Made by a program: the position numbers and the translations under genes. Under the pieces are notes generated by a model. The model made no database searches. It saw only the letters and a list, made by a program, of their open reading frames with translations, and had not been told where the DNA came from. From the NCBI GenBank assembly GCA_946540605.1, contig CAMNIU010000222.1:1-46701 (forward strand): 46,701 nt of DNA. The letters run 5' to 3'. Of the stretch, positions 13,801-29,051 are shown in pieces. Origin of the DNA: an uncultured Treponema sp. (lineage in GTDB: Bacteria; Spirochaetota; Spirochaetia; Treponematales; Treponemataceae). Numbering within the stretch: the stretch's first letter is position 1; each line of letters starts with the position of its first letter.

Positions 13801-14549
13801 TGATATTTTATATGACCGCGGATCCTTCCTTTGTCGTTATCTCTTCCTTCAATATAAATATCAAATTTTGTATTTATGTGATTCACGCTAAGAATTTCTT
13901 TTTCTGCTTCAATCTGTTCTGTTGTTGCATCAGTTTCTGGAAGAATTACAGGAAGACAACCTTCTTTGAGAATGCGAGGTGCTTCACTTGCATTTCGAGA
14001 AATATAGCTTGATGGAACTTTAGCGGCGATTTCAATAAATTCAGGAGCTTTGTTATCAATTTGTTTGTTTATTCTATATTTATGATTTATAGAAGAAGTT
14101 ATTGGAAGACCATCAGGAGTGGTGCAGGCTCTTGAAAGCTTTACGAAAATGTCCATAGTTTCCTTTTTGTCTAAATCTATTAGATGGCGTTCATTTGCAG
14201 CAATTTTTACTTCTTTATTGTCGTTATACCATTCCGGTTCTAAGAAGTATTCTTTAAGATCAGTTTCCTGTGAATCTTCAATTTTGAAATTATCATTAAA
14301 AGTAGAAGGATTCATAGATTTCGTAAATGAAATTATAATGGCTCTGTTTTTGGGAAGCCCGCCATCCTGAAAGACTGGCTCTACAGTCGCCACCGGGCAT
14401 TCATTATTTGCAATATAGATTGCTTTATCGATTGCTTCTTTTACGTCACCGCCATCAAGAAAATTTTCGCAGCTAAAAAAAAGGGTGGTGCAAACTAGAA
14501 TAAAAATTGGATAAAAGATTTTGGGATTAAAAAAACGATTATAATTCAT
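10884..14549 (-). CDS. Very large lipoprotein with N-terminal Ig-like (Big_5/SbsA-type) domain
   Basis: About 1,221 residues. Start at 14549 because GGAG lies 8 nt upstream; an ATG 12 nt earlier overlaps that site. A hydrophobic signal ends in LFFSC (Cys27). The N-terminal ~150 residues (NECPVATVEPVFQ..PKNRAIIISFTKSMNPSTF) are like bacterial Ig-like Big_5 domains. The rest is a chain of beta-rich segments with many Tyr, Asp and Asn, including a YDDNNSEKRKVELFFED strand pair, and shows no enzymatic motif I recognise. Proteins opening with CENFLDGGD-like sequences recall large paralogous treponemal lipoproteins (recollection, not a search). A surface or periplasmic structural role is inferred. 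It lies between ruvA and ruvB on the opposite strand. Confidence 0.75.
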   Translation of the reverse strand: MNYNRFFNPKIFYPIFILVCTTLFFSCENFLDGGDVKEAIDKAIYIANNECPVATVEPVFQDGGLPKNRAIIISFTKSMNPSTFNDNFKIEDSQETDLKEYFLEPEWYNDNKEVKIAANERHLIDLDKKETMDIFVKLSRACTTPDGLPITSSINHKYRINKQIDNKAPEFIEIAAKVPSSYISRNASEAPRILKEGCLPVILPETDATTEQIEAEKEILSVNHINTKFDIYIEGRDNDKGRIRGHIKYHQLYDSMGEEVPADEEEIYVNLEKNENDDNYTGKYTIDLSDEKYSDGLYEIKVTLQDSYNKESNEVKTYNVVRDTIFAYRSNTRFGLSSPLYRIDISENATKEQIETGLREGWLDPHYNDGEYEYPTARDIEDRLNDVSFSFLPKDSYYNSKLTGENYYDDSTDYKYYVFWGLDINHLTPTPAELINPYEWAAYDNNSYWCPLPEDFHNFANDIKNQNCNIIMQAKIIDGVGNDNYITILYPKKIDFHNYIVSYDDNNSEKRKVELFFEDMTKSDYTKIVNLPDRKVKPIYRIFYGKLNNGDNSDSEKNTKLHRNTAVPLEEDHWSDISDLHIINNLEPDSKYVVYVQVEYKTDSMLNGQWVGETFGPLYKVIVNTSLSGSVSLEAPEFTFDKESAGVNTGLFDVTVNILNFDENVKYVPCYSTDNGQNWIYYKSETANTFTFTVTNPLRAPFENDWNKPDWDKTSWVDEWGYNCDNGDNTYFEAVKVCKEKYGYPDVSAKIKLLAVSDTKTVESEVQPIFFSEKDDNIPPFITNNVSQHDSRLSYDGRYYQFDNIVREDEGHLSEYYNYYYAPYQESWGDNLSIMEPAEIEALPGGIATYKSTTYYYNGAAYGIDAAIPVYGLPDGKYMFFAKVTDTYGNYAYITLGKADIGTFKNKLSVKYDPKKNMLISTLPIESDENFYRNMIYIQDCWHEDSKKATVWTIDGYYGYLNQLQNCEKTIENGKTVLQNDNSNAKPGDFIMIDWDTDPEHATVIPIAPKELRGNCFYRITMQGFNENPYSESKGRGVNRKYGRPYSEFDSTHPYENDQKYLYTNNISNYVEGETEYDLCTEETVSNTIYYFIPTTSNDSSVNETTFDKDYLNDIKRTFFADTATPRSNKAYLVNVIASERDLGDDADEWERRGKLIKSHMYLPDRNGNDITYDKFGTFDSSVAADDMYNSHEKGLVYYVAVVHFADGKTAMSNVYTMQGF

Positions 14550-14633
14550 AACACACTCCATTGTTCCATTATGGAAGAGAAAAAATCAGCCGTCAAGAAA
14601 AATATGTCATTGTAGAAATTATACTGATTTATG

Positions 14634-14642
14634 TGTTATAAT
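14634..14642 (+). promoter_or_regulatory. Extended -10 promoter of ruvB (leaderless)
   Basis: TGTTATAAT: an extended -10 (TGn) joined to perfect TATAAT (14637-14642). No good -35 is at the right distance, as is usual for extended -10 promoters. The second in-frame ATG of ruvB (14650) is 7 nt downstream; the first (14641) overlaps the -10 itself. Confidence 0.6.
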
Positions 14643-14649
14643 GAATTTT

Positions 14650-15708
14650 ATGAAGGAAGAAGATTTTTCTGCTGATTTTTCGGCTATTGTGCGTGCAGAT
14701 TTAAAGAACAGCTATGATGAACAGGATAATAAACTGCGTCCGACCATGCTCAAGGATTTTCTTGGGCAGGAAAGCGTAAAGAAAAATCTTTCAACTTTTA
14801 TTGAAGCGGCAAAATTGCGTGAAGAACCGCTCGACCACCTTCTGCTTATAGGCCCACCGGGACTTGGAAAAACTACTCTTGCACAGATTACAGCCCATGA
14901 GCTGGGAGTTGATTTTAAGGTGACTTCGGCACCCGCTCTGGACAAGCCAAAAGACCTTGCCGGCATCTTAAGTACAATTACTCCGCGAACAGTTTTCTTT
15001 ATTGATGAGATTCACCGCTTAAAGCCAGCCATTGAAGAAATGCTCTATATTGCAATGGAAGATTTTGAATTGGACTGGATTATTGGTCAGGGGGCTGCGG
15101 CTCGTACTGTCCGCATTCCGATTCCGCCCTTTACTCTGGTTGGTGCTACAACTAAGGCGGGCAGTGTAAGTTCACCTTTGCGAAGCCGCTTTGGTTTTAT
15201 TCCTCGTTTTGAATTTTATACTCAAAAAGAACTTTCTTCTATTATAAAACGTTCTGCTAACATTCTGGAAATTGGAATTGATGAAGATGCGGCTATGCTC
15301 CTGGCTCAGTGTTGCCGCGGAACTCCTCGTGTTGCAAACCGTGTACTGCGCCGCATGCGTGACTTCGCTCAGGTAGCAGGAAGCCGTAATATAACCGTAG
15401 AAATTGTAGACGAAGGATTACGCCGCCTTGAAATTGACGAAATTGGCCTTGAAAAATACGACCGCGAGATTCTTCGGTCCATTATAGAAAACTTTGGGGG
15501 CGGCCCGGTTGGTGCTGAGACTCTGGCGATTTCTATCGGCGAAAGCATGGATACTCTGGAAGATTATTATGAGCCGTATCTTATTCAGTGTGGACTTTTG
15601 CAGAGAACTCCGCGCGGTCGAATGGTGACCGAAAAGGCTTATAGTCACCTCGGCTTAACACACGCCGCCGACTCAAAAGACGGCGGCGTTCAGGGAACTC
15701 TTTTTTAA
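14650..15708 (+). CDS. ruvB: Holliday junction ATP-dependent DNA helicase RuvB
   Basis: The AAA+ motor that drives branch migration with RuvA. It has DFLGQESVKKNLSTFI, Walker A LLIGPPGLGKTTLA, Walker B TVFFIDEIHRL, sensor I GATTKAGSVSSPLRSRFG with the arginine-finger region, then the RuvB lid and winged-helix C-terminus (RTPRGRMVTEKAYSHLG). About 352 residues, normal for the family. An ATG at 14641 adds three residues but lies within the TATAAT box, so 14650 is preferred if the transcript is leaderless. Its stop codon directly abuts the stop of the convergent GH5 gene, with no intervening bases and no terminator. Confidence 0.96.
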   Translation: MKEEDFSADFSAIVRADLKNSYDEQDNKLRPTMLKDFLGQESVKKNLSTFIEAAKLREEPLDHLLLIGPPGLGKTTLAQITAHELGVDFKVTSAPALDKPKDLAGILSTITPRTVFFIDEIHRLKPAIEEMLYIAMEDFELDWIIGQGAAARTVRIPIPPFTLVGATTKAGSVSSPLRSRFGFIPRFEFYTQKELSSIIKRSANILEIGIDEDAAMLLAQCCRGTPRVANRVLRRMRDFAQVAGSRNITVEIVDEGLRRLEIDEIGLEKYDREILRSIIENFGGGPVGAETLAISIGESMDTLEDYYEPYLIQCGLLQRTPRGRMVTEKAYSHLGLTHAADSKDGGVQGTLF

Positions 15709-16989
15709 TTATTTATCAAAATCTGCATACTTTTTAGGGAAGGCTGCATATTCGCCTATTATGATAGGGGCATTATATTCTTTTGCTTTTTCTGATAAAA
15801 ATGCCATATCATCTTTAATGATTCTTCCATGAACTGTTTCATTCCAGATTGCAGTCATTTTTGTCCAGGTTGCATCTGACCAGGTAAAGCCTTGAGGATT
15901 GTAATTATGTACCTCTATAATCAGATGATTTTCTGTGCTGTCTTCTGGAAGGGCAAAATTAGAAAATGAATTAGAACTACCTTCTCCGGCATAAGTCATA
16001 ACTATAAGATTTCTTGTTGAATTATTTCCGCCGGTTGCTCTAACAGAATCTACAAAAAGCTGATTCCATTTATTTATGTATACATTTGCTTTCTTTGCTA
16101 CATCCAGGCTTGGACTCCATGTTGCTTTTTCATCTAATACTTCATTCATACTTTCAAAAATCAGACGTTCATCATAATCCTTAAAAGTTTCTGCTAACTG
16201 AGTCCATATGTTTTGAAAGCGATCTTTGTACTGTTCCCAGCTTGAATCGCAGGCTTTTATCCAGCCAGAAGCTCCACCATCATGATGAATATTTATGATA
16301 CAGTACATGTCGTTTTCAATAACATAATCAAGGCATTCTTTTACGCGTGAAAGCCATACTGGATCAATATTGCCTTCATCATCAATATGTTCGCCCCAGG
16401 TTACCGGCATGCGGACTGCATCAAAACCAAGACTTTTTACAAGAGCAATTATTTCATTACTTGTTTTTGGCTGGCCCCAACCGGTTTCCCAGGTTATAAT
16501 TCCATCGTTCCATCTGACCATCCAGCCTTTCTCATCTTCTTTTGAACTAGCCCAGTTGTCATACCATTTATTATGAGTCTTATCCCAAAGAGCCTGATAT
16601 GAGGTTGAGTCCAAAGTATTTCCAAGATTCCAGCCGGTCTTCATATTTTTTACAGCTGTCTGGGCAGATTCTTCTTTATAGCCTTTTTCAGCTTTATGAT
16701 ATTGTGCTCGGCCTTCATAGCTTTTCATAATTCCATCAATTACTTCCTGATGGGCAGAAAGATTTTTTCTGATAACTATATCAGAACAGTCCCACCAGAA
16801 GCCTGTGAGATTATCATCTGCGGAAAAACAGTTGTTGATACATTCTGCATATTTTGCGACCTCTTTGTAGTTGTATTCATTGTTTGTTGCATCTGTATTA
16901 GATTTGCAAGAATTACATAAAAGGATAAATGGTGTGATTAAGCCTGTAATTATAAGACATACTTTTGATATAAATATATTTTTTTTCAT
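15709..16989 (-). CDS. GH5-family endoglucanase-like lipoprotein, apparently circularly permuted
   Basis: A 426-residue secreted glycosidase. Signal peptide 1-25 with a lipoprotein-like CNSC (Cys28). GH5 landmarks: MKTGWNLGNTLD (116-127, normal domain start), DAVRMPVTW (190-198), INIHHDGG (232-239), acid/base Glu283 in SMNEV, EVHNYNP (359-365) and nucleophile Glu413 in IIIGEYAAF. In ordinary GH5 enzymes 50-60 residues follow the nucleophile, including the eighth strand with a conserved Trp; here only 13 do. The missing piece appears instead at residues 40-93, just after the signal: YKEVAKYAEC, LTGFWWDC, then IRKNLSAHQEVIDGIMKSYEG. Specificity (cellulose, xyloglucan or mixed-linkage glucan) cannot be read. 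The promoter is a perfect consensus and leaderless. Confidence 0.88.
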   Translation of the reverse strand: MKKNIFISKVCLIITGLITPFILLCNSCKSNTDATNNEYNYKEVAKYAECINNCFSADDNLTGFWWDCSDIVIRKNLSAHQEVIDGIMKSYEGRAQYHKAEKGYKEESAQTAVKNMKTGWNLGNTLDSTSYQALWDKTHNKWYDNWASSKEDEKGWMVRWNDGIITWETGWGQPKTSNEIIALVKSLGFDAVRMPVTWGEHIDDEGNIDPVWLSRVKECLDYVIENDMYCIINIHHDGGASGWIKACDSSWEQYKDRFQNIWTQLAETFKDYDERLIFESMNEVLDEKATWSPSLDVAKKANVYINKWNQLFVDSVRATGGNNSTRNLIVMTYAGEGSSNSFSNFALPEDSTENHLIIEVHNYNPQGFTWSDATWTKMTAIWNETVHGRIIKDDMAFLSEKAKEYNAPIIIGEYAAFPKKYADFDK

Positions 16990-16995
16990 AAGTTA

Positions 16996-17024
16996 ATTAT
17001 AGGTTTGGAAAACTTGGTTGTCAA
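16996..17024 (-). promoter_or_regulatory. Perfect-consensus, leaderless sigma-70 promoter of the GH5 gene
   Basis: On the minus strand: TTGACA (17024-17019), a 17-nt spacer, TATAAT (17001-16996), then 6 nt, then the ATG of the GH5 gene at 16989. Both hexamers match consensus exactly. No Shine-Dalgarno is present in the 6 nt left. Confidence 0.85.
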
Positions 17025-17070
17025 ACGAAGTTTGAAAAATAAGAGAAAGCCCGTAGGTCACAAGCTCTAT

Positions 17071-17099
17071 TTCCCATTAATTTGTTTTTGTGATATTAT
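17071..17099 (+). promoter_or_regulatory. Predicted leaderless promoter of queA
   Basis: TTCCCA (17071-17076, 4/6), a 17-nt spacer ending in TGA, then TATTAT (17094-17099), giving an extended -10 TGATATTAT. The queA ATG is 6 nt downstream and no Shine-Dalgarno precedes it. Confidence 0.6.
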
Positions 17100-17105
17100 A
17101 GCCGC

Positions 17106-18179
17106 ATGTTAACTTCTGATTTTAATTTTGAGCTGCCCGAAGATTTGATTGCGCAGCATCCAAGTGGAGTGCGCGGACAGGATAAACTCATGCTTTTGAA
17201 CAGGGCAACCGGACAAGTGGAACATCACATGATGGATGACCTCCCGGATTTGATTGAGCCCGGAACTCTTATGATTTTTAATAACAGCCGTGTTCGTCGC
17301 GCTCGTGTTTACGGAATCAAAGAGACTACGGGCCGCGAAACAGAATTCATGTTTCTTAATACAATCGATAAAGAATGCTGCATTTGGAATACCATGGTAA
17401 AATCTGCAAAAAAACAGAAGCCTGGAATGCATTACAAATTTCCAGATGGAACTGTTGCTGAAATTATTGAACACGAAGGAAATGCTGGAACAGAATTTCG
17501 TGCTCTAAAATTTGATTTTGCAATTGATGAAGACTGGTTTGAGCGTAACGGCCACATTCCTCTTCCTCCATATATCAAGCGTGGGGACACGGAAGAAGAT
17601 TCAGAACGTTATCAGAATGTTTATGCCACTAACACTGGTTCTGCAGCCTGTCCTACAGCGGGGCTTCATTTTACAGAAGATATGCTTGCACGTCTTGATG
17701 CAAAGGAAATTGAACGCCGCTTTGTAACTCTGCATGTAGGACTGGGAACCTTCCTTCCGGTTCGTGAAGATAATATTGAAAATCATAAAATGCACGAAGA
17801 ATGGTATACAGTTCCAAAGGAAACTGCTGATGCCATTAACAAGGCTAAAGCTGAAGGCAGACCTATTCTTGCTGTTGGAACTACAAGTGTAAGAACTCTT
17901 GAAAGTGTGGCTCAGAAAATTGAAATGGAAGGCGGGGTAGTCGGGGCTAACAATGAATGGGTGCGTGCCGGCACAAGTTCTACGAGCATCTTTATGTATC
18001 CGGGCTTTAAGTTTAAGGTTGTAGACAAAATGTTTACAAACTTCCATACTCCGGAAAGCACATTAATTATGCTGGTTTCAGCCTTTGCCGGCCGCGAACA
18101 CATACTGAACGCCTACAAAACTGCCGTGGAAAATAGATATCGTTTCTTCTCCTATGGAGATTGTATGTTCATAAGATAA
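17106..18179 (+). CDS. queA: S-adenosylmethionine:tRNA ribosyltransferase-isomerase QueA
   Basis: The enzyme transfers the ribosyl group of SAM to 7-aminomethyl-7-deazaguanine in tRNA, forming epoxyqueuosine. The 357 residues carry the family hallmarks: ELPEDLIAQHPSGVRGQDKLMLL, LIEPGTLMIFNNSRVRRAR, GHIPLPPYIKRGDTEEDSERYQNVYA, GSAACPTAGLHFTEDML, VTLHVGLGTFLPVR and FTNFHTPESTLIMLVSAFAG. The partner tgt, which inserts the queuine precursor, is in this window at 39006. The gene is the last member of the interrupted yebC-ruv-queA set. Confidence 0.97.
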   Translation: MLTSDFNFELPEDLIAQHPSGVRGQDKLMLLNRATGQVEHHMMDDLPDLIEPGTLMIFNNSRVRRARVYGIKETTGRETEFMFLNTIDKECCIWNTMVKSAKKQKPGMHYKFPDGTVAEIIEHEGNAGTEFRALKFDFAIDEDWFERNGHIPLPPYIKRGDTEEDSERYQNVYATNTGSAACPTAGLHFTEDMLARLDAKEIERRFVTLHVGLGTFLPVREDNIENHKMHEEWYTVPKETADAINKAKAEGRPILAVGTTSVRTLESVAQKIEMEGGVVGANNEWVRAGTSSTSIFMYPGFKFKVVDKMFTNFHTPESTLIMLVSAFAGREHILNAYKTAVENRYRFFSYGDCMFIR

Positions 18180-18180
18180 A

Positions 18181-18262
18181 AAATTCCTCACAGAGTTAAG
18201 GAGTGCACGGAGGAAAATGAAAAAATATAAACTCTGTGTCCTCTTAAACTCTGTGAGAAATT
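18181..18262. repeat. ~80-bp nested palindromic repeat, family B copy 2
   Basis: AAATTCCTCACAGAG at the left and CTCTGTGAGAAATTT at the right, with an inner CTCTGTGTCCTCTTAAA arm. It fills the 87-nt gap between convergent queA and the FAD-subunit gene, and may form the 3' end of both transcripts. Confidence 0.85.
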
Positions 18263-18266
18263 TATT

Positions 18267-19064
18267 CTATGTTAATTGTTCAAAACTATAGCGCGCTAAA
18301 TTAAAAAACTGCTGACGCATTACGTCAGTAATCATCTGGTCGGTAGCGGCCTTCTGGAATTGTTCAGCTACTGCTTCTTCAAGTTGAGAAATGTCTTTCT
18401 GTGAAAGTGGCAGGCGACGACCGCTCATAAAATTTTCAAACTCCTTGCTATGGAATGTAAATGGACCTGCAAAAGCCAGGTGCACATTAAGCAGGGAGTT
18501 TTTTTCTGTATCAGCTAAAAATGCAAACGAAGCTGACTGCTGGGTAATAGTGTGTTCCGGACCAACACGGCGGAAAATAGAAAGCTCTGCATCTACAAGC
18601 GGAATTCGGATATTTGATAGAATAAAACCTTCCGGCACAACCTTAAAGTTTCTGATGTTTTCTGTATGAGTTTCTGTCTGATTTTTGAATTCGAGTTTTG
18701 CATCTAGTGCCATAAGAGGGGCAAACAGAGTAAGCTTATGATTTTCGGAACAGATGTTTCCACCGATTGTAGCTGTGTTTCGGATTATGGGATTTGCAAT
18801 ACAGTTTAAGGCTTCGTATAAAATTGGCGGCAAGTGGGTCTGTCCTATAGCTAAGAGTTCTGCAAGTGTAGTTCCAGGGCCTACATCAATATAACGCTCG
18901 TGACGCGAAATGTGAGAAAGATCTTTTATTCCATGCGTTGAAATAAATTTATCGGGCAGTGTTTCAATTCTTGTACAGCCACCTACAACCTTTGTTCCCG
19001 GATTATTACTCAGGATTTTTATGAGTTCTGCTGCATTTTTTGCATAAAGTATTGTCTTTCCCAT
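18267..19064 (-). CDS. FAD-binding subunit of a molybdenum-hydroxylase-like complex
   Basis: A 265-residue CoxM/XdhB-type flavoprotein subunit. The FAD sites are visible: KVVGGCTRIE (for the usual aGGT motif) and NTATIGGNICSENHKLTLFAPLMALDAKLEF. The CO_deh_flav_C-like tail is present (FMSGRRLPLSQKDISQLEEAVAEQF). It would take electrons from the iron-sulfur subunit and pass them to NAD+ or another acceptor. It is the last gene of a five-gene minus-strand run, 26 nt after the 2Fe-2S gene, with AAGGAAG ahead of its ATG. The subunit looks more canonical than its partners. Confidence 0.85.
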   Translation of the reverse strand: MGKTILYAKNAAELIKILSNNPGTKVVGGCTRIETLPDKFISTHGIKDLSHISRHERYIDVGPGTTLAELLAIGQTHLPPILYEALNCIANPIIRNTATIGGNICSENHKLTLFAPLMALDAKLEFKNQTETHTENIRNFKVVPEGFILSNIRIPLVDAELSIFRRVGPEHTITQQSASFAFLADTEKNSLLNVHLAFAGPFTFHSKEFENFMSGRRLPLSQKDISQLEEAVAEQFQKAATDQMITDVMRQQFFNLARYSFEQLT

Positions 19065-19090
19065 TCTACTTCCTTATTAATGAATCCTTA

Positions 19091-19567
19091 TCAGCTTCGT
19101 TTTAATCTTTTATTTGACACCTGAATTGCATAGATGATTCCATTTACAAGAGTTTCTAAATCCGTACAGCAAGGGGCAAGGGCTTTCAGATTATCTGCAA
19201 TTTCTTGACGGGTAGGTATTTTGGGTATTTTTAAGATCTGATAAGCAGAAAAAACTTTTCCTGCTGTACAGTAACCGCAAAGTTTTATTCCAGCTTTCTG
19301 AAAGCCTGCCATTATATTTGAATACTCTTCTGTTTTTGTAAAATAATCTAAGGTAACGATGTCACAGTTTCGGACAATTCCTGCCGGTATTTTACAAGAT
19401 GCAACCGGTTTGTCATCAAGCAAAATTGTACAGGTTCCACAAAAGCCACTGCTGCAGCCACTTTTTACCGAAGGACAGCCGTTTTTGTGTAACACCTTCA
19501 TAAGTGATTCATCTGCATGAGCGTCAAGAATTGTTTTTGTTCCGTTCAGGGTTACTGGTATTTTCAT
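19091..19567 (-). CDS. 2Fe-2S subunit of the molybdenum-hydroxylase-like complex, altered distal cluster motif
   Basis: 158 residues with two predicted [2Fe-2S] domains. The plant-ferredoxin-like cluster is intact: Cys38, Cys43, Cys46 and Cys58 (GCSSGFCGTC...SC). The distal cluster has Cys97 and Cys100 (CGYC), but the normal C-x-C of the NLCRCTGY motif reads APCCTDL (Cys133-Cys134): the first ligand position is Pro and the Cys is shifted by one. The start overlaps the stop of the large-subunit gene by 4 nt, with GGAG upstream. Electron transfer between the molybdenum site and FAD is the expected role. Confidence 0.85.
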   Translation of the reverse strand: MKIPVTLNGTKTILDAHADESLMKVLHKNGCPSVKSGCSSGFCGTCTILLDDKPVASCKIPAGIVRNCDIVTLDYFTKTEEYSNIMAGFQKAGIKLCGYCTAGKVFSAYQILKIPKIPTRQEIADNLKALAPCCTDLETLVNGIIYAIQVSNKRLKRS

Positions 19568-21798
19568 TCTTCCGCTCCTTTGCTTTCAGATTTTTTAGTT
19601 TCATTCTTTTCTTTTGTACGGTCTCGAATCAGCTGGAAGAGCAGATCTTCTGTACAAGGAAGTTCTGTAAGCTGAGTTGTAAGTGCAAGAGAAAGTGCCG
19701 AAGAAAAGGCTGCCGGGAGCGAATTATGAATGAGTCCTCCAACCTGACCAGAGCGGTTACTTGATTGAATAAAACTGATGTTGATTGCATCGCAAGGAAC
19801 TGTCTTTCCTTTTACAAGCATATTAAGTTCCTGCTGAATTTCCAGTTTAAGAGTACGGCGTGCTGCAGCTTCATCAAAAAGTTCTCCACAATCCATAGTA
19901 ACCCAGATTCCTTTGATTTTCTCGCTGTAGGTATAAGTGTCGAGTTCCACCTCAACTACAGTTGTTATAAAAGAGGTTGTAAAGAAGGGAGTTCCGCTGA
20001 AACTGTCTTTATCCCATTTGTTGCGTGGAGAAAGCTGACCACCGCGTTTTGCAGTAATTGGAAGCGGCTGATGGAAGCGTTTTTTCTGAATATCTGTACA
20101 GCATTTTTTTACAAGCTCGTTCATAATACTGATGGAGCTGTAAGAATCTTCCGGACGTTCTGGAATCTGATCATATGGAAAATCAGAATTAATCTGAATA
20201 TTTTGTTTTGGAATTTGAAGAATTTCAGCAGCAGAGCTTTTCCAGATGTCCTGAATTACTTCAGAAGGTTTTATTGTGTGAATTATAAGTTTTTCATCGG
20301 CGTTTAGAGTTACTTCCACTTTTGTGTCATTTGTAAAACTTGTTTGTCCGTAATAGCCAGAAGGAATGTATGCAGTTGCAACTCCAATTCCTCGTAATGG
20401 AAGAGCAAAGAAAGGTTTACTGTCTTTTTCTGCACGGTCAATTGCTTCCATATGGAATGAGGCATATTTTCTGTTGAAATCACTTTCCTTAAGGGCCTTT
20501 TGAATAACCGATTCAACATCACCTGTTGGAATAGTAAACGGAAAGTCTTTTGATTCCGGTGATTTATGAGCATTTAGAAGGCGAAGTTCATCCGGGAAAA
20601 TTTTTGACTGATTACTGATTTTCTGGATTTCGTTTTCAATTGCAAAAAAGGCTTGTGATTCAATTATCTGCATGGAAATTGATGTAGGCGGATTTTTGGA
20701 AGTATGTGCTTTTGCAGAGATGTAAAGATTTTCTGGTTTATAATAGCTTGCTGATGCAATTGCAATTCGGTCTGTTATTTCCTGAGCAAAAGGATTCGAG
20801 CTTCCAATATCAATATCAATAATGATTTTTAAGGCTTTTAAGCGGCCGTCTTTGTTTAAGGCTGTTCGGTAAGTTATTTCTGTGAGAACACCAGGAACCA
20901 TATAGTTTTCCTGTTCAAACTGAGAAAGCACAAGACGAACCGGTTTTTTAGTTAGCCATGAAGCAGCAGCAATTTGAACTGCAAGTTGAGTCGTTCTTAC
21001 CAGCCCGGAAGGATAGATTCCTGCAGATTTTGTTTTATGAATATAAACCTGCTCTTCTTTAATATCCAGAACCTGAGCTACAGATTTTTGGGTAAAAGAA
21101 GTCCAGCGGGTTGGAGCATATACATGAATTTTATCGCCTTCTGTATAAGCAAAAGCTCCTTCTGTTTCCTGCCATTTTGGTGTAAGTAGTTTTTCTTTCC
21201 AGATATCTGTTGATGTAAAATCAGCATTATCAAAAAGTTTTGTATCTGCCTGAGCAAGAGATAAAGTTTTATAAAGTCCGTATTTTACTTCGCGGGTTGC
21301 AACAACAACATTTGGATTTTCTTCAACATGAGATTTATCGATTACAGTATCGAGAGATGGCATTTCATTAATCTGTTCAAGAAACTCTTTAAAATTTGCG
21401 GTTTCTTCCTGCTGATTAATTACATTGTTGAGAGCCGATTCAAGGTTTTCTACATCAAATGTAACGTTAGCAGTGTCTAACAGTTTGTAAACTTTTTCTT
21501 CGTCCGGGCCAAAAAGAATTCCAAGTGGTTCCCCGCTGTAAGATACATTTCCATATCCAAAGATTTTTGTGACTGTCTTGTTTGCAGAAATTGATTTTGC
21601 TCCAGGAAGGTCTTTTGAACTGAGCATAAAATAACCTTCCGGCAAATCAGGAACAGTTACGCTTTTTACTTTTCCGGCTGGGGCAGGGCTTCGTATGAGT
21701 GCTGCGTAAAGACAGCCTTCTTTTTCTGCATCGCTATAAAATCCGGATGCTTCGAGGGAGCGGAAATTTGCTTTTGAAGAATTTTTCTTTGCAGCCAT
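19564..21798 (-). CDS. Divergent molybdopterin-binding subunit of xanthine-dehydrogenase family
   Basis: A 744-residue homologue of the large (XdhA/CoxL) subunit. The N-terminal a/b hammerhead is recognisable (EGCLYAALIRSPAPAGKVKSV, NVSYSGEPLGILFG). Further homologous stretches are KKPVRLVLSQFEQE, FFAIENEI and the PAAFSSAL helix. The three loops that normally hold or serve the molybdenum cofactor are not conserved: the GGGFGGK position reads SAGIYPSGL (258-266), the RGFG position reads SISMQIIE (373-380), and the GVGE catalytic-Glu motif reads SGQVGGLI (683-690). The tail is Lys/Glu-rich. Substrate and even activity are uncertain. It overlaps both neighbours (TAATG upstream, 4 nt downstream), so translation is probably coupled. 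Confidence 0.8.
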   Translation of the reverse strand: MAAKKNSSKANFRSLEASGFYSDAEKEGCLYAALIRSPAPAGKVKSVTVPDLPEGYFMLSSKDLPGAKSISANKTVTKIFGYGNVSYSGEPLGILFGPDEEKVYKLLDTANVTFDVENLESALNNVINQQEETANFKEFLEQINEMPSLDTVIDKSHVEENPNVVVATREVKYGLYKTLSLAQADTKLFDNADFTSTDIWKEKLLTPKWQETEGAFAYTEGDKIHVYAPTRWTSFTQKSVAQVLDIKEEQVYIHKTKSAGIYPSGLVRTTQLAVQIAAASWLTKKPVRLVLSQFEQENYMVPGVLTEITYRTALNKDGRLKALKIIIDIDIGSSNPFAQEITDRIAIASASYYKPENLYISAKAHTSKNPPTSISMQIIESQAFFAIENEIQKISNQSKIFPDELRLLNAHKSPESKDFPFTIPTGDVESVIQKALKESDFNRKYASFHMEAIDRAEKDSKPFFALPLRGIGVATAYIPSGYYGQTSFTNDTKVEVTLNADEKLIIHTIKPSEVIQDIWKSSAAEILQIPKQNIQINSDFPYDQIPERPEDSYSSISIMNELVKKCCTDIQKKRFHQPLPITAKRGGQLSPRNKWDKDSFSGTPFFTTSFITTVVEVELDTYTYSEKIKGIWVTMDCGELFDEAAARRTLKLEIQQELNMLVKGKTVPCDAINISFIQSSNRSGQVGGLIHNSLPAAFSSALSLALTTQLTELPCTEDLLFQLIRDRTKEKNETKKSESKGAEE

Positions 21799-23009
21799 TA
21801 TCTTCTATAAGTTTCTCCTATGTTTGTAACTGTGTCAATTACAAGTTGAGCCTGTTCATCTGTCATATCAGGATAGAGCGGAATTGAAATTGTAGTATTA
21901 TACTGATGCTCTGCATTCGGAAAGTTTTCTGCAGTAAAATCAGGGTAAAGTTCACGCCAGTAAGTAAAATGAAAAATCGGAATAAAATGGACTGAAATGC
22001 CTAGTCCTGCTTCCTGCATTTTTTTAGCAAATTCATCGCGTGTAATTTTCAGATTTTCCGGAATTATGCGCATCAGGTATAAATGCCAGCTGTTTCCTTC
22101 ACCATCTGGGGGAAGTTTTATAAAATCTAATTTAGAAAAAGCTTCATTGTATTTTTCTACAATTCGTTTTCTCTGTTCATAAAATAATTCTGCACGATCT
22201 ACCTGACAGCAGCCAAGTGCTGCAAGAACATCTGGAAGATTGAATTTATAACCAGGGGCTATAATGTCATATTCCCAGCTTGCGCGCGGGCTGGTGTAGC
22301 GGTCCCAGGTTGTACGGTCCATTCCATGCATACGCATAACAGTCATGCGGCGTGCAAGATCTTTATCGCGGGTACAAACCATTCCACCTTCTGCTGTTGT
22401 AATTGTCTTTGTTACATAAAAAGAGAAAACCCCTGCGTCTCCGATTGTTCCTGCATAACCAAGTTTTGTTGGAGAAGGGAAGGAGTGTGCAGCATCTTCT
22501 ATTACATAGATTTTGTGTTCCGGAGTAGAATACTTTTTTGCCAGCTCCATAATACGTTCCATATTACAGATGTTTCCTGCAATATGAACCGGCACAATTG
22601 CCTGTATGATATCTGCGTGTTTTTTTAAGATTTCTTCTATTTTATCTGGATCAATACTATAGTTGTCTTTTTCTACATCAGCAAAAAAAACATCTGCATT
22701 TAAGTGGCGGGCACAGGCTGCGGTTGAAACAAAAGTGTAGGGGGTTGTAATAACAGCTTTTCCCTGGCGAACTCCGCAGGCTTCCATCGCAAGAATCATT
22801 CCGCTGGTATTTGAATTAACTGCAAGACTAATTACCGGCTCGCGTTCAGCTGCTTCGTCGCCTTTGCTTACTGCTGCACTGAATTTTTTTTCAAACTCGA
22901 GTGCGTATTTTCCGGTGGTAAGCCAGCCGCTTCTAAGTACATCTAAAACTGCATCTTCTTCGGCTTTTGTTATTGCGGCTCTATGAAATGGAACTTTTAT
23001 TTCTGCCAT
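21798..23009 (-). CDS. DegT/DnrJ/EryC1/StrS PLP-dependent sugar aminotransferase
   Basis: A 403-residue fold-type I aminotransferase of the sensory-transduction/sugar class. Evidence includes the N-terminal VPFHRAAITKAEEDAVLDVLRSGWLTTG, VPVHIAGNICNME, IYVIEDAAHSFPS, the PLP-Lys motif SFYVTKTITTAEGGMV and LGISVHFIPIFHFTYW near the C-terminus. These enzymes aminate 4-keto (or 3-keto) nucleotide sugars. The dehydratase 31 nt upstream would supply such a 4-keto-6-deoxy sugar, so the pair probably makes an amino-dideoxy sugar for a glycan or flagellin (inference). The stop overlaps the next ATG by one base. Confidence 0.92.
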   Translation of the reverse strand: MAEIKVPFHRAAITKAEEDAVLDVLRSGWLTTGKYALEFEKKFSAAVSKGDEAAEREPVISLAVNSNTSGMILAMEACGVRQGKAVITTPYTFVSTAACARHLNADVFFADVEKDNYSIDPDKIEEILKKHADIIQAIVPVHIAGNICNMERIMELAKKYSTPEHKIYVIEDAAHSFPSPTKLGYAGTIGDAGVFSFYVTKTITTAEGGMVCTRDKDLARRMTVMRMHGMDRTTWDRYTSPRASWEYDIIAPGYKFNLPDVLAALGCCQVDRAELFYEQRKRIVEKYNEAFSKLDFIKLPPDGEGNSWHLYLMRIIPENLKITRDEFAKKMQEAGLGISVHFIPIFHFTYWRELYPDFTAENFPNAEHQYNTTISIPLYPDMTDEQAQLVIDTVTNIGETYRR

Positions 23010-23040
23010 AGTTTTATTCCTCGTGTGTTCTCAAATTCTT

Positions 23041-24543
23041 CTATAATAAATCAGTGCGGAGCTGACCGTCATTTTTTATTTCTTCATAAAAATCGCGAAG
23101 GCTCTTGCAGTCATCGCAAAGAAGCTTTACAAGAAGTGTCTTGTTCCGGAATTCTGCTTCGTGCCCGGGGGTATAAAAACAAATCGGGTGCAGGGCTTTT
23201 AGTAAAACTTCCAAACGTTCGTTAGTATATTCCTTGTTATCCAGCTGTAAGAGTTTTTTGTATTTGGTTGGAGTAGGATTTTCTTCCTTGAGCCATAATG
23301 GTTCAATAAGACGTTCTCCTTTTCGGGAACCAACAATTTTAATGTCGATATCTTTATAAGGTTCAAGTCCACTGAACTTAATTATCTGTTTTGCAAGATC
23401 TATGATTTTTACAGGCTCTCCCATATCCAAAAGATAAGATTTTCCATTTTCACCGACACCACCAGTTTGTAAAACAAGAGAACACGCTTCCGGAATTGTC
23501 ATAAAAAAGCGTTCCATCTTTTCATCTGTTACAGTAATCGGACCGCCGGTTTTTATCTGATCCTGGAATAGGGGGAGAATTGAACCCCGGCTTCCTAGTA
23601 CGTTTCCAAAACGGACAAACATAAATGACTGATTTGTATCAGCACGTTTAGCGGCATCAAGTACAAGCTTTTCGCAAAGCATTTTTGAAACGCCATAAAC
23701 GCTTACCGGAGCAACTGCCTTATCTGTAGAAATCAGAACAAAACGATCTACTTTATGAGTAAGGGCTGCATCCAGAAGATTTTTGGTTCCAAAAACATTA
23801 TTTTCAACAGCTGCTACCTGATTTTCTTCCATCATTGGAACGTGTTTGTAAGCTGCACAATGGAAAATTACATTACATTTTGTCTGGCGGATAATATAAT
23901 CAACATATTCACGGTCGCGCATGTCCCCAATAATAGGAACAATAGTTGCTTTTTCACCAACACCTTCTGCCTGTAAGAGCCGAAGTTCGCGGTAAATACT
24001 GCAGATTGAATTTTCGCCGTGTCCAAAAAGATAAAGACGTTCAGCACCACCACTTAAAAGCTGTCTTGCAAGTTCTGAACCAATTGAACCACCAGCACCG
24101 GTAATAAAAACACGTTTACCACGAAGATATCCAAGGCTTTCTTTTAATGAAATTGTTACGGGAGTTCTGCCAAGAATATCAAGAGGATCAATTTCACGGG
24201 TTTGAACAAGATGAGCAGTTCCTTCTATTACCTGACTTATTCCAGGCAATATCTTAATATGATTAAATCCGTTTTCTGTAAGGGTTTCATAAATCTCGCG
24301 AATGCGTTCAGTTGGGGCAGAAGGAATTGCAATGATTGCTTCGTCTAAATCTGAATTAGAAAGAATGGAAGTAACACCGCTAATAGGACCAAGAACCGGA
24401 ATACCGTCTATTGAAGTTCCAATTAAATCTTTATTATCATCTATAAAGGCGTTTACTTTTCCAAATATTTTTTTTCGTTTAATGTCATCGGCAATGGTTT
24501 GCCCTGCAAAGCCTGCGCCAATTATGTAGATTCTTTTTTCCAT
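23041..24543 (-). CDS. NDP-sugar dehydratase/epimerase (CapD/FlaA1/PglF family, soluble form)
   Basis: A 500-residue protein with two Rossmann domains. Residues 1-~130 hold IYIIGAGFAGQTIADDI and a CoA-binding-like domain, the cytoplasmic half of the CapD family. The SDR domain begins at GKRVFITGAGGSIGSELARQLL, has the modified TD/AYK sites (FHCAAYKHVPMME, VSVYGVSKMLCEKL) and FVRFGNVLGSRGSILPLF. The usual four N-terminal membrane segments are absent, so it is a soluble short version. UDP-GlcNAc 4,6-dehydratase activity is most likely. It heads the operon that continues into the aminotransferase and the hydroxylase-like subunits. Upstream, 145 nt separate it from a divergent gene, with no strong promoter recognised. 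Confidence 0.9.
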   Translation of the reverse strand: MEKRIYIIGAGFAGQTIADDIKRKKIFGKVNAFIDDNKDLIGTSIDGIPVLGPISGVTSILSNSDLDEAIIAIPSAPTERIREIYETLTENGFNHIKILPGISQVIEGTAHLVQTREIDPLDILGRTPVTISLKESLGYLRGKRVFITGAGGSIGSELARQLLSGGAERLYLFGHGENSICSIYRELRLLQAEGVGEKATIVPIIGDMRDREYVDYIIRQTKCNVIFHCAAYKHVPMMEENQVAAVENNVFGTKNLLDAALTHKVDRFVLISTDKAVAPVSVYGVSKMLCEKLVLDAAKRADTNQSFMFVRFGNVLGSRGSILPLFQDQIKTGGPITVTDEKMERFFMTIPEACSLVLQTGGVGENGKSYLLDMGEPVKIIDLAKQIIKFSGLEPYKDIDIKIVGSRKGERLIEPLWLKEENPTPTKYKKLLQLDNKEYTNERLEVLLKALHPICFYTPGHEAEFRNKTLLVKLLCDDCKSLRDFYEEIKNDGQLRTDLL

Positions 24544-24688
24544 TTTCCCAACCCTTAGTGTTATTTTATCACATTAGGAAGAAATTGTCATAAAAATCTC
24601 TAAACCCGCATTTATTTTTCACCGATTAAAATAATAAGAGTCGGAGTATTGTGTCCGCTCTGCGCATTTTGCGTAATGGGGTGTTCCA

Positions 24689-25195
24689 ATGGGGAAGCTT
24701 AAAAGAATTGTAATTTTTTCCGCATTTCTTTTTAGTGCAGCTTTATGCTTTGCAAATCAGATTTCATTTCAGATTGTACAGCATGATGATTCTGCAGACA
24801 ATGTTACGGAAGATTCAATGATTATAGAAGATTCTGTACTCAATACTTTTTTTGAGTACGGCTACATTGTAACAAATTCTGATGCGGCTATATCAGATTC
24901 AGAAAATCAGGATGAACATCTGTATAAAATTGGAAGTGGTGAAGCTTTTAATGGTTTTTCTGATTATTTTATACAGATTAAATTATATTACGAACGTACG
25001 GATAATACTTTATCTGCAAGTTCAGATTTATATAAAATTAATTTTACGATTGCTTCTGCAAAAAGCGGCGTAAAAATTGCAGAAAAAACTTTGGAAAATC
25101 TTAAAGTAGATCGTACAAAGAAAAATAATCTGGCAAAGATTTCTACAGATCTTGTAAGTCAGATAAATAAAGCATTAAAAGCAAATAAAGCCTAA
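24689..25195 (+). CDS. Secreted or periplasmic protein of unknown function
   Basis: 168 residues with a clear signal peptide (KRIVIFSAFLFSAALCFA, cleavage near ANQ). The mature part is acidic and predicted alpha/beta (IQIKLYYER, YKINFTIASAKSGVKIAEKTL). I do not recognise a family. It ends 13 nt before the SPOR-protein gene, so the two are probably cotranscribed and may act together in the envelope. No clear Shine-Dalgarno is seen, only GGGG 8 nt before the ATG. Confidence 0.7.
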   Translation: MGKLKRIVIFSAFLFSAALCFANQISFQIVQHDDSADNVTEDSMIIEDSVLNTFFEYGYIVTNSDAAISDSENQDEHLYKIGSGEAFNGFSDYFIQIKLYYERTDNTLSASSDLYKINFTIASAKSGVKIAEKTLENLKVDRTKKNNLAKISTDLVSQINKALKANKA

Positions 25196-25208
25196 GGATG
25201 GGTAGGGT

Positions 25209-26954
25209 ATGAAAAATAAAATCAAAAACTTATTTAAGATTCTGGTTGTAACTGCAGGATGTCTCATGTTTGCATCATTCAGTCCTTCTCTCGATGGAAG
25301 GGCCGTTGTTGTTGATGACGGAGTTTTTCCTCAGGGACTTTTTGCTAAAACAGTAGGCTATTTGCCGGGTGACATCATAAGTGTTACAAATATTGCTGGA
25401 GATGCAACTGTAGATATTCTTGTGATTGGTGCACTAGACCCTTCCGAAGGTGTTGCAATTATGCTTTCTCCAGAAGCTGCACAGGCAATGGGAATTGAAA
25501 AAGGTTCAAATAATATTGTCAAAATTACAAAGCGTTCCGGTCAGGAAGAACGAGTTTATGGCAATGCTGTAATTTCAAAGTCTGCATCAGATTTTGAAGA
25601 TAATGATGATGGAAGTTTTGAGACCATCGGAGCTGAAGAAAACTCTGAAGCTTTTGAAGAACCTGAAGCAGAAGAAAATATGGCTTCTGAAGAGTTTACA
25701 GAAGAAGAAACTCCAACCCCAGAAGAAACTGCTGAACCAGAAACAGAAGCTGAAGAAACAGAAGAAACTTTTGAAGAGGCAGAGTCAGAAGAAAACGAAG
25801 CCCCTGAAGAAACTGAAACTCCAGAAGAGACTGCAGAAACAGAAGAAGAGGCTCCTGTTGAAGAAGCAATAGAATCTGAAGAAATTGCTGAAGAACCTTT
25901 GGAGGAAGAACCTCTTGAAGAAGAAAACTTCGAAGAAGAGTCGGCAGTTGAAGAGGAAACTCCTGCAGAAGAAGCTCCGGAAGAAGAAGAGATTGCAGAA
26001 GAGGCAATTCCGGAAGAACCTGCAGAAGAAGAAACTTTGGAAGAAGAGGCTTTTGAAGAGGAAACTCTTGAAGAAGAACCTGAGGAAGAACAGCCTCAGC
26101 CGGAAGAAAAAGAATATGAAGCTGTAGATGAAGAAGAACTTCCAGAACATGAAGATGCTCCGGAAGAAGAAGAGTTTGTAGAAGATGAACTTGAAGAGAC
26201 TCCTGAAACAGAAGAAGAAGCTGTAGCTCCTGAAGAAGAGGAAGAAACAGAATACGCTCCTGCAGAAGAAGCCTTTGCTGCAGATGAACTAGATGAACTT
26301 CCTGAAGAGGAAACTCCAGCAGAAGAAACCCCAGTTGAAGAAGAGTTTACTGAAGAAGAACCAGTTGCAGAGGAAACTCCTGTTGAAGAAGAAGCTCCAG
26401 TAGAGGAAGAAGCTTTGGAAGAAGAATACGAAGCAATCGTTCTTGTTCCTGCTGATTCAAATCCTCCTGAAGCAGAAGAGCCGGAAGAAGATGCTGTTGA
26501 AGATGTAGTTTCAGAAGATGAACTTGAAGCTCTTGAAGAAGAGAATGTATATAATCTCATTCCTCTTGAAAGTGGAAGTTCTTCTGGTTCTGAAGCAGGA
26601 GCACCAGGTGCACCAGTAGAAAGTGTTGCTGAGTCAGTTGCTGTAGAACCAGAAGAAGAAATAGCTCCTGTTGTTGAAACATCAACATCTTATGATAAAT
26701 ACATTGTGCCAAGCCTTAAGGATTTGGAGTCTGGTAAGTACTACATTCAGATTGCAGTTTATGCTTCTGATGAAAATATTCTTGAAGTTATTAATAAGTA
26801 TGGAACTAATTATCCTATTACTATCGTACCAATGGCAGGTGGTAATAGAAAGCAGATTCTCGTCGGACCTGTTACAATGGATGAATATAAGGTTGTACTT
26901 GAAAGATTTAAGTCTTATGGATTTAAGGACGCGTTCTTGAGAAAAGTACGATAA
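25209..26954 (+). CDS. SPOR-domain envelope protein with ~310-residue Glu-rich spacer
   Basis: 581 residues. The N-terminal signal or anchor is FKILVVTAGCLMFASFSPSL. Residues ~30-125 form a beta-rich domain (AVVVDDGVFPQGLFAKTVGYLPGDIISVTN) of unrecognised family. Residues ~135-450 are an extremely acidic, repetitive spacer built of EE, PEE, AEE and TPEE units. The C-terminal 75 residues are a SPOR domain (YYIQIAVYASDENILEVINKY...QILVGPVTMDEYKVVLERFKSYGFKDAF) that would bind glycan strands stripped of stem peptides. A peptidoglycan-linked role at division or remodelling sites is likely. The GAA/GAG-rich repeats open long artificial frames on both strands. Shine-Dalgarno GGTAGGGT precedes the ATG. 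Confidence 0.85.
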   Translation: MKNKIKNLFKILVVTAGCLMFASFSPSLDGRAVVVDDGVFPQGLFAKTVGYLPGDIISVTNIAGDATVDILVIGALDPSEGVAIMLSPEAAQAMGIEKGSNNIVKITKRSGQEERVYGNAVISKSASDFEDNDDGSFETIGAEENSEAFEEPEAEENMASEEFTEEETPTPEETAEPETEAEETEETFEEAESEENEAPEETETPEETAETEEEAPVEEAIESEEIAEEPLEEEPLEEENFEEESAVEEETPAEEAPEEEEIAEEAIPEEPAEEETLEEEAFEEETLEEEPEEEQPQPEEKEYEAVDEEELPEHEDAPEEEEFVEDELEETPETEEEAVAPEEEEETEYAPAEEAFAADELDELPEEETPAEETPVEEEFTEEEPVAEETPVEEEAPVEEEALEEEYEAIVLVPADSNPPEAEEPEEDAVEDVVSEDELEALEEENVYNLIPLESGSSSGSEAGAPGAPVESVAESVAVEPEEEIAPVVETSTSYDKYIVPSLKDLESGKYYIQIAVYASDENILEVINKYGTNYPITIVPMAGGNRKQILVGPVTMDEYKVVLERFKSYGFKDAFLRKVR

Positions 26955-26961
26955 ATAATAT

Positions 26962-26985
26962 GACTAGCTCCCGTCGGAACTAGTC
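26962..26985. other. Hairpin after the SPOR-protein gene
   Basis: GACTAG-C-TCC-CGTC-GGA-A-CTAGTC forms a 9-bp stem broken by one mismatch, directly followed by repeat B3. It has no T-run. Confidence 0.5.
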
Positions 26986-27064
26986 CCTCACAGAGCAGAA
27001 GAGGCCACAGAGCAGGTGATTTATAATTTCCTCTCTGTGGCCTCTGTGTTCTCTGTGAGAAATT
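26984..27064. repeat. ~80-bp nested palindromic repeat, family B copy 3
   Basis: CCTCACAGAG and GAGGCCACAGAG on the left; CTCTGTGGCCTCTGTG and CTCTGTGAGAAATTT on the right. It lies between the convergent SPOR and ilvE genes. This copy has the best-preserved inner arms of the four. Confidence 0.88.
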
Positions 27065-27073
27065 TATTTTCTG

Positions 27074-28096
27074 TTAATTGATAGTATATACCCAACCCTC
27101 TGGTGCTGGAAGTCTACCCATCTGAATTCCTGTCAAAGTATCGTAGATTTCTTTCAATTTAGGACCCATTTCCTGTTTTCCTTCATTGTAGATAATCTGC
27201 TTTCCGTGGTCATCAATTTCGCCTACTGGAGAAATAACGGCTGCAGTACCACAAAGTCCACATTCTACAAAATCGCCAAGTTCAGATTTGTTAATCTTTC
27301 TCTCTTCAACTTCCATGTGGAGATATTCTTTTGCAACAATTACAAGTGAGCGGCGTGTAATTGAAGGCAAGATAGAGTCAGATTTTGGAGTTACAAGCTT
27401 TCCATCTTTAGAGATGAAGATGATGTTTGCTCCACCTGTTTCTTCAAGATATGTATGAGTTGCTGGATCAAGATACATATTTTCTGCATAACCACAGTTA
27501 TGAGCGTCTACAATGTTGTGGAGTGACATAGCATAGTTCAAACCAGCTTTGATATCACCTGTTCCATGAGGAGCAGCGCGGTCGAGGTCTGAAAGGCGTA
27601 CTTTAATAGGTTTTACACCACCTTTGAAATATGGTCCAACAGGAGTTACGAGAATACGGAACTGATATTCTTCAGCTGGTTTTACACCAATAACTGCGCT
27701 TGAACCGAACATATATGGACGGATGTAAAGAGTAGCACCGCTTCCGTAAGGTGGAACCCATTCTTTGTTTGCTTCGATAGTCTGAAGAACTGCTTCAATA
27801 AAGCGCTCTTTTGGGAAAACTGGCATTTCAAGACGTTTGCAGGAATTTTCCATACGCTCAGCGTTTAAATCCGGACGGAATGTAACGATGTCGCCATGCT
27901 CAGTTGTATAAGCCTTAAGACCTTCAAAACAAGTCTGTGCATACTGCAATACACCTGCACATTCGCTGATTTTTACAGTATGGTCAGAAGTAAGTTTTCC
28001 TTCATCCCATTCGCCGTTTTTCCAGTTTGCTACATAACTTTTTGATGTTTCCATGTAACCGAAAGGCAAGTTGCCCCAGTCTAAGTTTTTTGCCAT
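27074..28096 (-). CDS. ilvE: Branched-chain amino acid aminotransferase
   Basis: A 340-residue class IV PLP enzyme that interconverts Leu, Ile and Val with their 2-oxo acids. Motifs: LQYAQTCFEGLKAY, FRPDLNAERMENSCKRLEMP, YIRPYMFGS, the PLP Lys in HGTGDIKAGLNYAMS, and EETGGANIIFI with LPSITRRS for phosphate binding. This is the longer (BCAT type II) form. GAGG precedes the ATG by about 8 nt. A palindrome at 28111-28127 in its leader may be an operator. It stands alone, divergent from ribF. Confidence 0.95.
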   Translation of the reverse strand: MAKNLDWGNLPFGYMETSKSYVANWKNGEWDEGKLTSDHTVKISECAGVLQYAQTCFEGLKAYTTEHGDIVTFRPDLNAERMENSCKRLEMPVFPKERFIEAVLQTIEANKEWVPPYGSGATLYIRPYMFGSSAVIGVKPAEEYQFRILVTPVGPYFKGGVKPIKVRLSDLDRAAPHGTGDIKAGLNYAMSLHNIVDAHNCGYAENMYLDPATHTYLEETGGANIIFISKDGKLVTPKSDSILPSITRRSLVIVAKEYLHMEVEERKINKSELGDFVECGLCGTAAVISPVGEIDDHGKQIIYNEGKQEMGPKLKEIYDTLTGIQMGRLPAPEGWVYTIN

Positions 28097-28110
28097 ATTT
28101 ATACCTCACT

Positions 28111-28127
28111 CTTTAGTATTACTAAAG
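28111..28127. promoter_or_regulatory. Palindrome in the ilvE leader
   Basis: CTTTAGTATTACTAAAG is a 7-3-7 inverted repeat, 14 nt upstream of the ilvE ATG. Its core TTAGTATTACTAA differs by one base from TTAGTTTTACTAA (33424-33436) upstream of pnp. A regulator site is possible; so is a simple RNA hairpin. Confidence 0.45.
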
Positions 28128-28177
28128 TTCTTTATTTACACTAAATAATTATATAACTATTTTTTTTATTAGTAAAG

Positions 28178-28186
28178 TGATATAAT
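28178..28186 (+). promoter_or_regulatory. Extended -10 promoter of ribF (leaderless)
   Basis: TGATATAAT, with perfect TATAAT at 28181-28186 and an extended TGn. No good -35 is seen. The ribF ATG follows after 7 nt (ACAAAAT), with no Shine-Dalgarno. Confidence 0.65.
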
Positions 28187-28193
28187 ACAAAAT

Positions 28194-28985: not shown

Positions 28986-28989
28986 AATA

Positions 28990-29051
28990 GCTCCCGAAAC
29001 AAGTTCGGGATGACGATATAATAGGTGTCATACTGAACTTGTTTCAGCAAT
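28990..29051. repeat. Two-hairpin REP-like element, family C copy 2
   Basis: TCCCGAAACAAGTTCGGGATGAC, then GTGTCATACTGAACTTGTTTCAGCA: the same two hairpins as at 9201-9259 in inverted layout. It fills the gap between the convergent ribF and GGDEF/EAL genes, ending at the latter's stop codon. Confidence 0.75.

Follow-up and report, generated by a model that had tools for sequence, protein, structure and literature searches.

The window analyzed here, a stretch of 46,701 nucleotides from an uncultured Treponema sp., carries five genes arranged head to tail on its minus strand. The first encodes a nucleotide-sugar 4,6-dehydratase of 500 residues (23041-24543; PF02719), assigned by Pfam, NCBIfam and alignment, which keeps the TGAGGSIG, TDK and YxxxK motifs. 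A promoter scan placed a promoter-like site, scoring 10/12 with a TG before the -10, just 5' of this gene on the same strand (24563-24591). The dehydratase gene is followed by that of a DegT/DnrJ/EryC1 sugar aminotransferase of 403 residues (21798-23009), PseC-like but below the PseC cut-off and with the catalytic Lys kept, again from Pfam, NCBIfam and alignment. This gene shares one base with that of the large subunit (19564-21798, 744 residues; ORF list, Pfam, alignment and structure), a protein of xanthine-dehydrogenase fold whose cofactor loops are lost. The large-subunit gene in turn overlaps by 4 bases the gene of a [2Fe-2S] subunit of 158 residues (19091-19567; ORF list, Pfam and cysteine count), and a FAD subunit of 265 residues (18267-19064; ORF list, Pfam and motif count) completes the series. 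The reading frame at 19564-21798 had been taken as real in an earlier note that gave neither strand nor operon, and it is; the plus strand has 23 stops across the same interval. Promoter-like and terminator sites in the region were no commoner than in shuffled sequence, and an Rfam search of positions 14000-29000 returned no match. Only one copy of the large-subunit family was found in the window's own genome. On the plus strand, a neighboring gene (25209-26954) encodes a 581-residue protein whose middle is a long low-complexity stretch rich in Glu.

Against Pfam, the large subunit matched MoCoBD_1 (2.9e-28) and MoCoBD_2 (8.7e-11), while a match to the hammerhead domain did not reach its cut-off. 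With NCBIfam, the three subunits and both sugar genes gave only matches below the curated cut-offs, some of them far below, and therefore none of the five can be named as a known enzyme. AlphaFold2, run with 48 sequences (2 of the 49 chosen rows, one with an untranslatable run and one with a stop, were left out), gave a model of the large subunit with a pLDDT of 84.2 and a pTM of 0.84. Foldseek matched this fold over residues 18-739, and the best 50 matches listed were all molybdenum hydroxylases (TMq 0.67-0.74, 14-17% identity). VIA-align gave a Z score of 37.6 against the Desulfovibrio desulfuricans aldehyde oxidoreductase over 636 residues; among the 50 rows listed, Z was 31.4-37.6, including 31-37 for xanthine oxidoreductases and their relatives. 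A profile of 18 homologues retrieved 42 PDB sequences, all of molybdenum-hydroxylase type, with E values down to 3.1e-57. The XdhA/CoxL-family fold suspected in the earlier note was thus borne out by Pfam, AlphaFold2, Foldseek and VIA-align, and in its predicted fold the large subunit is a member of the molybdenum hydroxylase (xanthine oxidase) family.

The loops that contact the molybdenum cofactor are established from xanthine oxidoreductase structures. Three of them had been read in the earlier note as SAGIYPSGL, SISMQIIE and SGQVGGLI; they read exactly so, and in canonical copies the aligned positions are GGGFGG, RGFG and KG.GE. The former GGGFGG loop (residues 258-266, 21001-21027) keeps one of six diagnostic residues and the former RGFG loop (residues 373-380, 20659-20682) none of four, while in the former KG.GE loop (residues 683-690, 19729-19752) Gly688 stands in place of the catalytic Glu. 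Three more loops are lost beyond these, namely GQG (residues 510-514, 20257-20271; 0/3 kept), T.AS (residues 546-553, 20140-20163; 0/3) and GQ..GG..QG.G (residues 648-659, 19822-19857; 1/7). All six lie on the minus strand and were placed by alignment, all except KG.GE also by column scan. Scored over the six loops, the window protein retains 3 of 26 diagnostic residues; six canonical paralogues from the same taxa retain 26 (L066), 24 (L191), 22 (L174, L177 and L179) or 20 (L189). The scoring covered 155 distinct rows of at least 550 residues, shorter and identical rows having been dropped (L175-L190 are largely second pieces of genes in L162-L173). We also looked for canonical loops elsewhere in the large subunit, a possibility raised in the earlier note; none was found in the alignments or the profile comparison, and such a placement was rejected.

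The loss extends across the genus. Of the 114 distinct sequences from the genus, 111 have none of the four RGFG residues and none has more than 2/6 of GGGFGG; the catalytic-Glu column holds G (37), E (37), D (10), K (8), N (6), A, H and S (4 each), Q (1) and a gap (3). The catalytic-Glu position is free to vary, without constraint, in the genus, and the replacement loops are poorly conserved. Because the same loops are lost in orthologues, neither faulty sequencing nor misalignment accounts for the loss. In other families of the order, the copies have a first loop like HLDGKLWYPSL and partly keep GFG, TLSR and KGIGE; as parts of three loops are retained there, the loss is graded or stepwise. 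When 20 canonical and 46 divergent rows were compared column by column, with no motif named beforehand, 19 columns proved fixed in the canonical set and lost in the divergent one; every one of the 16 past residue 200 belongs to one of the six loops or lies no more than about 8 residues away. Other residues characterize the divergent rows: Trp232 (21103-21105, minus strand; column scan), present in 45/46 and absent from the residues listed for the 20 canonical rows, Pro580 (43/46), and a Trp at 267 (37/46; Val in the window protein). The most divergent large subunits, L202, L203 and L204 (family f3, genus g9), have no GGGFGG or RGFG residues; sugar genes are absent from their setting, and their three genomes have MoaC and, in two cases (G066, G072), MoeA.

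The residues of the partner subunits are largely kept. Of 66 rows of the [2Fe-2S] subunit, 64-66 have the cysteines of the plant-type cluster and all 66 have three cysteines of the second cluster; the fourth, scored in 65 rows, occurs as CxC in 21 and CCC in 5 and has moved by one residue to xCC in 39. The window's own subunit is among these 39, and with its fourth ligand shifted by one residue its second cluster is likely rather than certain. Two further subunits, L036 and L050, have lost 3/4 plant-type cluster cysteines and kept those of the second cluster. The FAD subunit matches PF00941 (7.8e-25) and keeps the TIGGN flavin motif. As predicted from domains, cysteines and motif, the two partners are a [2Fe-2S] subunit with two clusters and a FAD subunit of the family.

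The window protein was matched in 96 of 97 relatives, in 59/59 genomes of the genus, and in 280/291 genomes of the order (175/177 of good quality), some of the matches outside the genus being to canonical copies. A contig scan yielded 79 loci, in Treponema or uncultured Spirochaetaceae, Spirochaetia or Spirochaetales, including T. socranskii and three strains of T. bryantii that reach 81-84% identity in their best segment; the window thus derives from a rumen treponeme resembling T. bryantii. Divergent copies were also present in class-level families (L207, L208, L211, L216-L218, L221, L226); the examined copies from outside the class, plus two inside it (L209, L210), were canonical, and no match to the window protein was obtained in sixteen genomes of 0.9-1.8 Mb, all small and all from a single family of the class. 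A tree built from 32 divergent and 14 canonical rows has a single branch between the two sets (100/100); it omits L226, and the long branches of L218 and L221 come together in it. This phylogeny, which the earlier note had proposed as a check, and the loop loss common to the members support its suggestion of a new subfamily.

Selection was assessed from pairwise substitution rates. The dN/dS of the large subunit was 0.041 against the nearest relative (dS 0.57), 0.073-0.115 against six other close relatives (dS about 1) and 0.18-0.27 in more distant pairs, the highest of the five genes, although, except for L083, every pair has a dS close to 1 or higher, which makes those ratios rough. In the more distant pairs, its dN reached 0.30-0.36 versus 0.11-0.15 for the dehydratase and aminotransferase. 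All three subunit genes are under strong purifying selection, and the low dN/dS, together with the cysteines kept in the partner subunit, argues that the loop loss is not decay.

The two upstream genes look active, judged by the residues they keep: the aminotransferase has its catalytic Lys in 74/75 rows (one gap), and the dehydratase its TDK and YxxxK motifs in 36/36. They matched NCBIfam PseC (1.2e-96, 324 bits against a cut-off of 423.5) and PseB (1.2e-50, 172.3 bits against 407.75), respectively; as both are below the equivalog cut-offs, the sugar made is not fixed. We presume a likeness to dehydratase/aminotransferase pairs of the PglF/PglE type. The aminotransferase was also considered as a PMP/[2Fe-2S] 3-dehydrase, in which Lys is replaced by His, and this was ruled out by the retained Lys; had it held, such an identity would have explained a flavin/iron-sulfur partner.

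The usual gene order (dehydratase, aminotransferase, large subunit, [2Fe-2S], FAD) was complete at 136 of 183 divergent loci, counting a locus as complete when a dehydratase lay within 3.5 kb and the aminotransferase, [2Fe-2S] and FAD genes were in place. Another 27 loci were without the dehydratase only (in 9 of these, 4.4 kb or more of upstream sequence was available), 11 were without the aminotransferase (in 7, 4 kb or more) and 9 were cut by a contig end. The link to the dehydratase and aminotransferase genes extends over several families of the class. A dehydratase or aminotransferase was found upstream at 0/14 canonical loci, some of which are short. These are counts of loci, not genomes, drawn from two overlapping collections, with L192-L204 appearing again as L162-L173. 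Five loci were scanned for the gene 5' of the dehydratase: three have a NusG-like gene directly 5' (L061:1202-1744, L207:1420-1986, L208:8757-9287), L211 has a weak GNVR match below its cut-off, and L192 has an ABC permease. Special NusG paralogues are known at the head of polysaccharide operons, and a NusG-like gene at the locus therefore fits a glycan role.

We then considered the genes for making the cofactor. The earlier note had suggested a check for moa, moe and mog genes; it was run for MoaA, MoaC and MoeA, and the MoaC, MoeA_N and MoaA C-domain profiles had no match in the window's own genome, an 84.8%-complete draft. As a control, the MoaA, MoaC and MoeA profiles each matched in 11/14 named genomes. 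In the genus, MoaC was found in 7/59 genomes and MoeA in 6/59, and among genomes with a divergent copy outside the genus, 27/38 have Moco genes (MoaC). In good-quality genomes of the order, MoaC matched in 54/177 and MoeA in 43/177, which, set against the 175 with a homologue, leaves at least 121 genomes with a homologue and without MoaC. Among 26 chosen genomes, 23 were without MoaC and 24 without MoeA; complete genomes with the five genes among those without a match are G099, G068, G090, G439, G499, G327 and G368, and in G099 neither MoaC nor MoeA matched. G097, G191 and G516 also have neither match, and G164 has none to MoaC, yet these four have canonical molybdenum-hydroxylase genes (L227 in G097, L228 in G164, L229 and L230 in G191, L210 and L231 in G516), which raises the question of their cofactor source. 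Gene absence alone consequently proves little, and since it is a poor proxy, the main argument for a cofactor-free protein comes from the loops and the free Glu column, with the missing genes in second place.

G099 is complete on a single contig of 1,139,633 bp, with the five genes in order (locus L192) and a single gene homologous to the large subunit. We take this genome to be T. pallidum and, also by gene position, L192 to be its TPASS_0079/TPASS_0081 locus; the syphilis organism apparently also keeps the three-protein complex with its molybdenum site erased. In print, TPASS_0079 is annotated as 'Xanthine dehydrogenase(Molibdoprotein binding)' and TPASS_0081 as '(Molibdoprotein binding, FAD binding)' (PMC4403809; correction PMC5951579), entries that themselves make no mention of loop loss, sugar genes or a wider family. 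For TPASS_0079, the loops argue otherwise, and automatic annotation as xanthine dehydrogenase or molybdoprotein, including these printed entries, is probably wrong. PMC2688493, where it takes up T. pallidum and molybdopterin, does not concern the large-subunit gene. In the open-licence literature we found no account of loop or cofactor loss in spirochaetes or of the sugar link, and nothing on TP0080 or TP0077-81.

Altogether, we favor a reading in which the large subunit is one of three in a xanthine-dehydrogenase-like complex that has lost molybdopterin binding and that acts as a sugar-linked flavin/iron-sulfur oxidoreductase. With six of six loops gone and an unconstrained Glu column, the sequence strongly suggests that the molybdenum cofactor has been lost, and the large subunit very probably carries none. 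That the complex is functional appears, from the selection and the residues kept, a highly secure prediction. With the molybdenum pocket erased and the iron-sulfur and flavin parts kept, usually beside sugar genes, a different redox job is probable; a role in the sugar pathway is slightly favored, and redox chemistry directly on the sugar seems rather unlikely. The dehydratase and aminotransferase would make a sugar of the UDP-4-amino-4,6-dideoxy-HexNAc type, and the FAD and iron-sulfur subunits, held together by the large subunit, would still move electrons. The old cofactor and substrate cleft, relined for example with the invariant Trp232, may now be open to a different partner or substrate, perhaps even the nucleotide sugar, and the outcome would be a cell-surface or flagellar glycan. 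It is tempting to speculate, if only tentatively, that spirochaetes turned an ancestral molybdenum hydroxylase into a molybdenum-free flavin/iron-sulfur oxidoreductase whose emptied cleft serves nucleotide-sugar chemistry, a change ancient in the class and kept even in the reduced syphilis genome. If true, it would mean that a molybdenum hydroxylase, in a widely conserved form, lost its metal cofactor yet kept its electron-transfer partners and remains under selection. It also indicates a redox step linked to sugars, so far unstudied, that a strongly reduced pathogen genome has retained.

Among other readings, a redox-dead complex that serves as a structural or regulatory scaffold, its large subunit and partners stabilizing or sensing, for example as an FeS redox sensor that acts on the sugar enzymes, is a minor but real contender. 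The large subunit evolves fastest of the five genes, plant-type cluster cysteines are lost in 2/66 rows and the fourth Cys of the second cluster is shifted in 39/65, all of which would suit a scaffold; against this, three second-cluster ligands are invariant in 66/66 rows, the flavin motif is kept and all three genes are under strong purifying selection. The inactive scaffold that the earlier note had offered beside a new subfamily is for the same reasons not supported for the whole complex; the new subfamily is the suggestion that is supported. We regard as improbable a changed cofactor, in which the pocket binds another pterin, a nucleotide or a metal for a hydroxylase-like reaction: the newly conserved Trp232, Trp at 267 and Pro580 and the GFG and KGIGE kept in order-level copies speak for it, but the poor conservation of the replacement loops and the free Glu column in the genus are unlike a cofactor site. 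It is more improbable still that this is an ordinary Moco enzyme with divergent loops, supplied through unrecognized genes or uptake. Canonical copies in genomes without MoaC or MoeA imply that a supply route or a loss of function must exist there, and the T. pallidum copies are annotated as molybdoproteins in print (PMC4403809, PMC5951579), but six of six binding loops with 23 of their 26 residues have gone, and the catalytic Glu has given way to Gly in the window and varies freely across the genus. A pseudogene or sequence artefact, for which the loss of otherwise invariant residues might be cited, is practically discounted by a frame intact in most relatives, a confident fold and dN/dS of 0.04-0.12, ratios that are rough but on which a pseudogene is rejected.

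In its fold and in its three-subunit layout with [2Fe-2S] and FAD partners, the complex resembles the xanthine oxidase family (xanthine dehydrogenase, aldehyde oxidoreductase, CO dehydrogenase and glyceraldehyde oxidoreductase). In contrast to these enzymes, the window protein is without all six cofactor loops and the catalytic Glu, its best NCBIfam matches are far below every curated cut-off, and its gene adjoins nucleotide-sugar genes. The canonical paralogues (L066, L174, L177, L179, L189, L191 and others) have the same domains and in some cases share a genome with a divergent copy, as do L066 and the divergent L054 in G012, whereas they keep 20-26 of the 26 loop residues, lie on a separate branch and are beside sugar genes in 0/14 cases. 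The two upstream genes match both families of the PseB/PseC 4,6-dehydratase and aminotransferase pair, but unlike that pair they score below the equivalog cut-offs.
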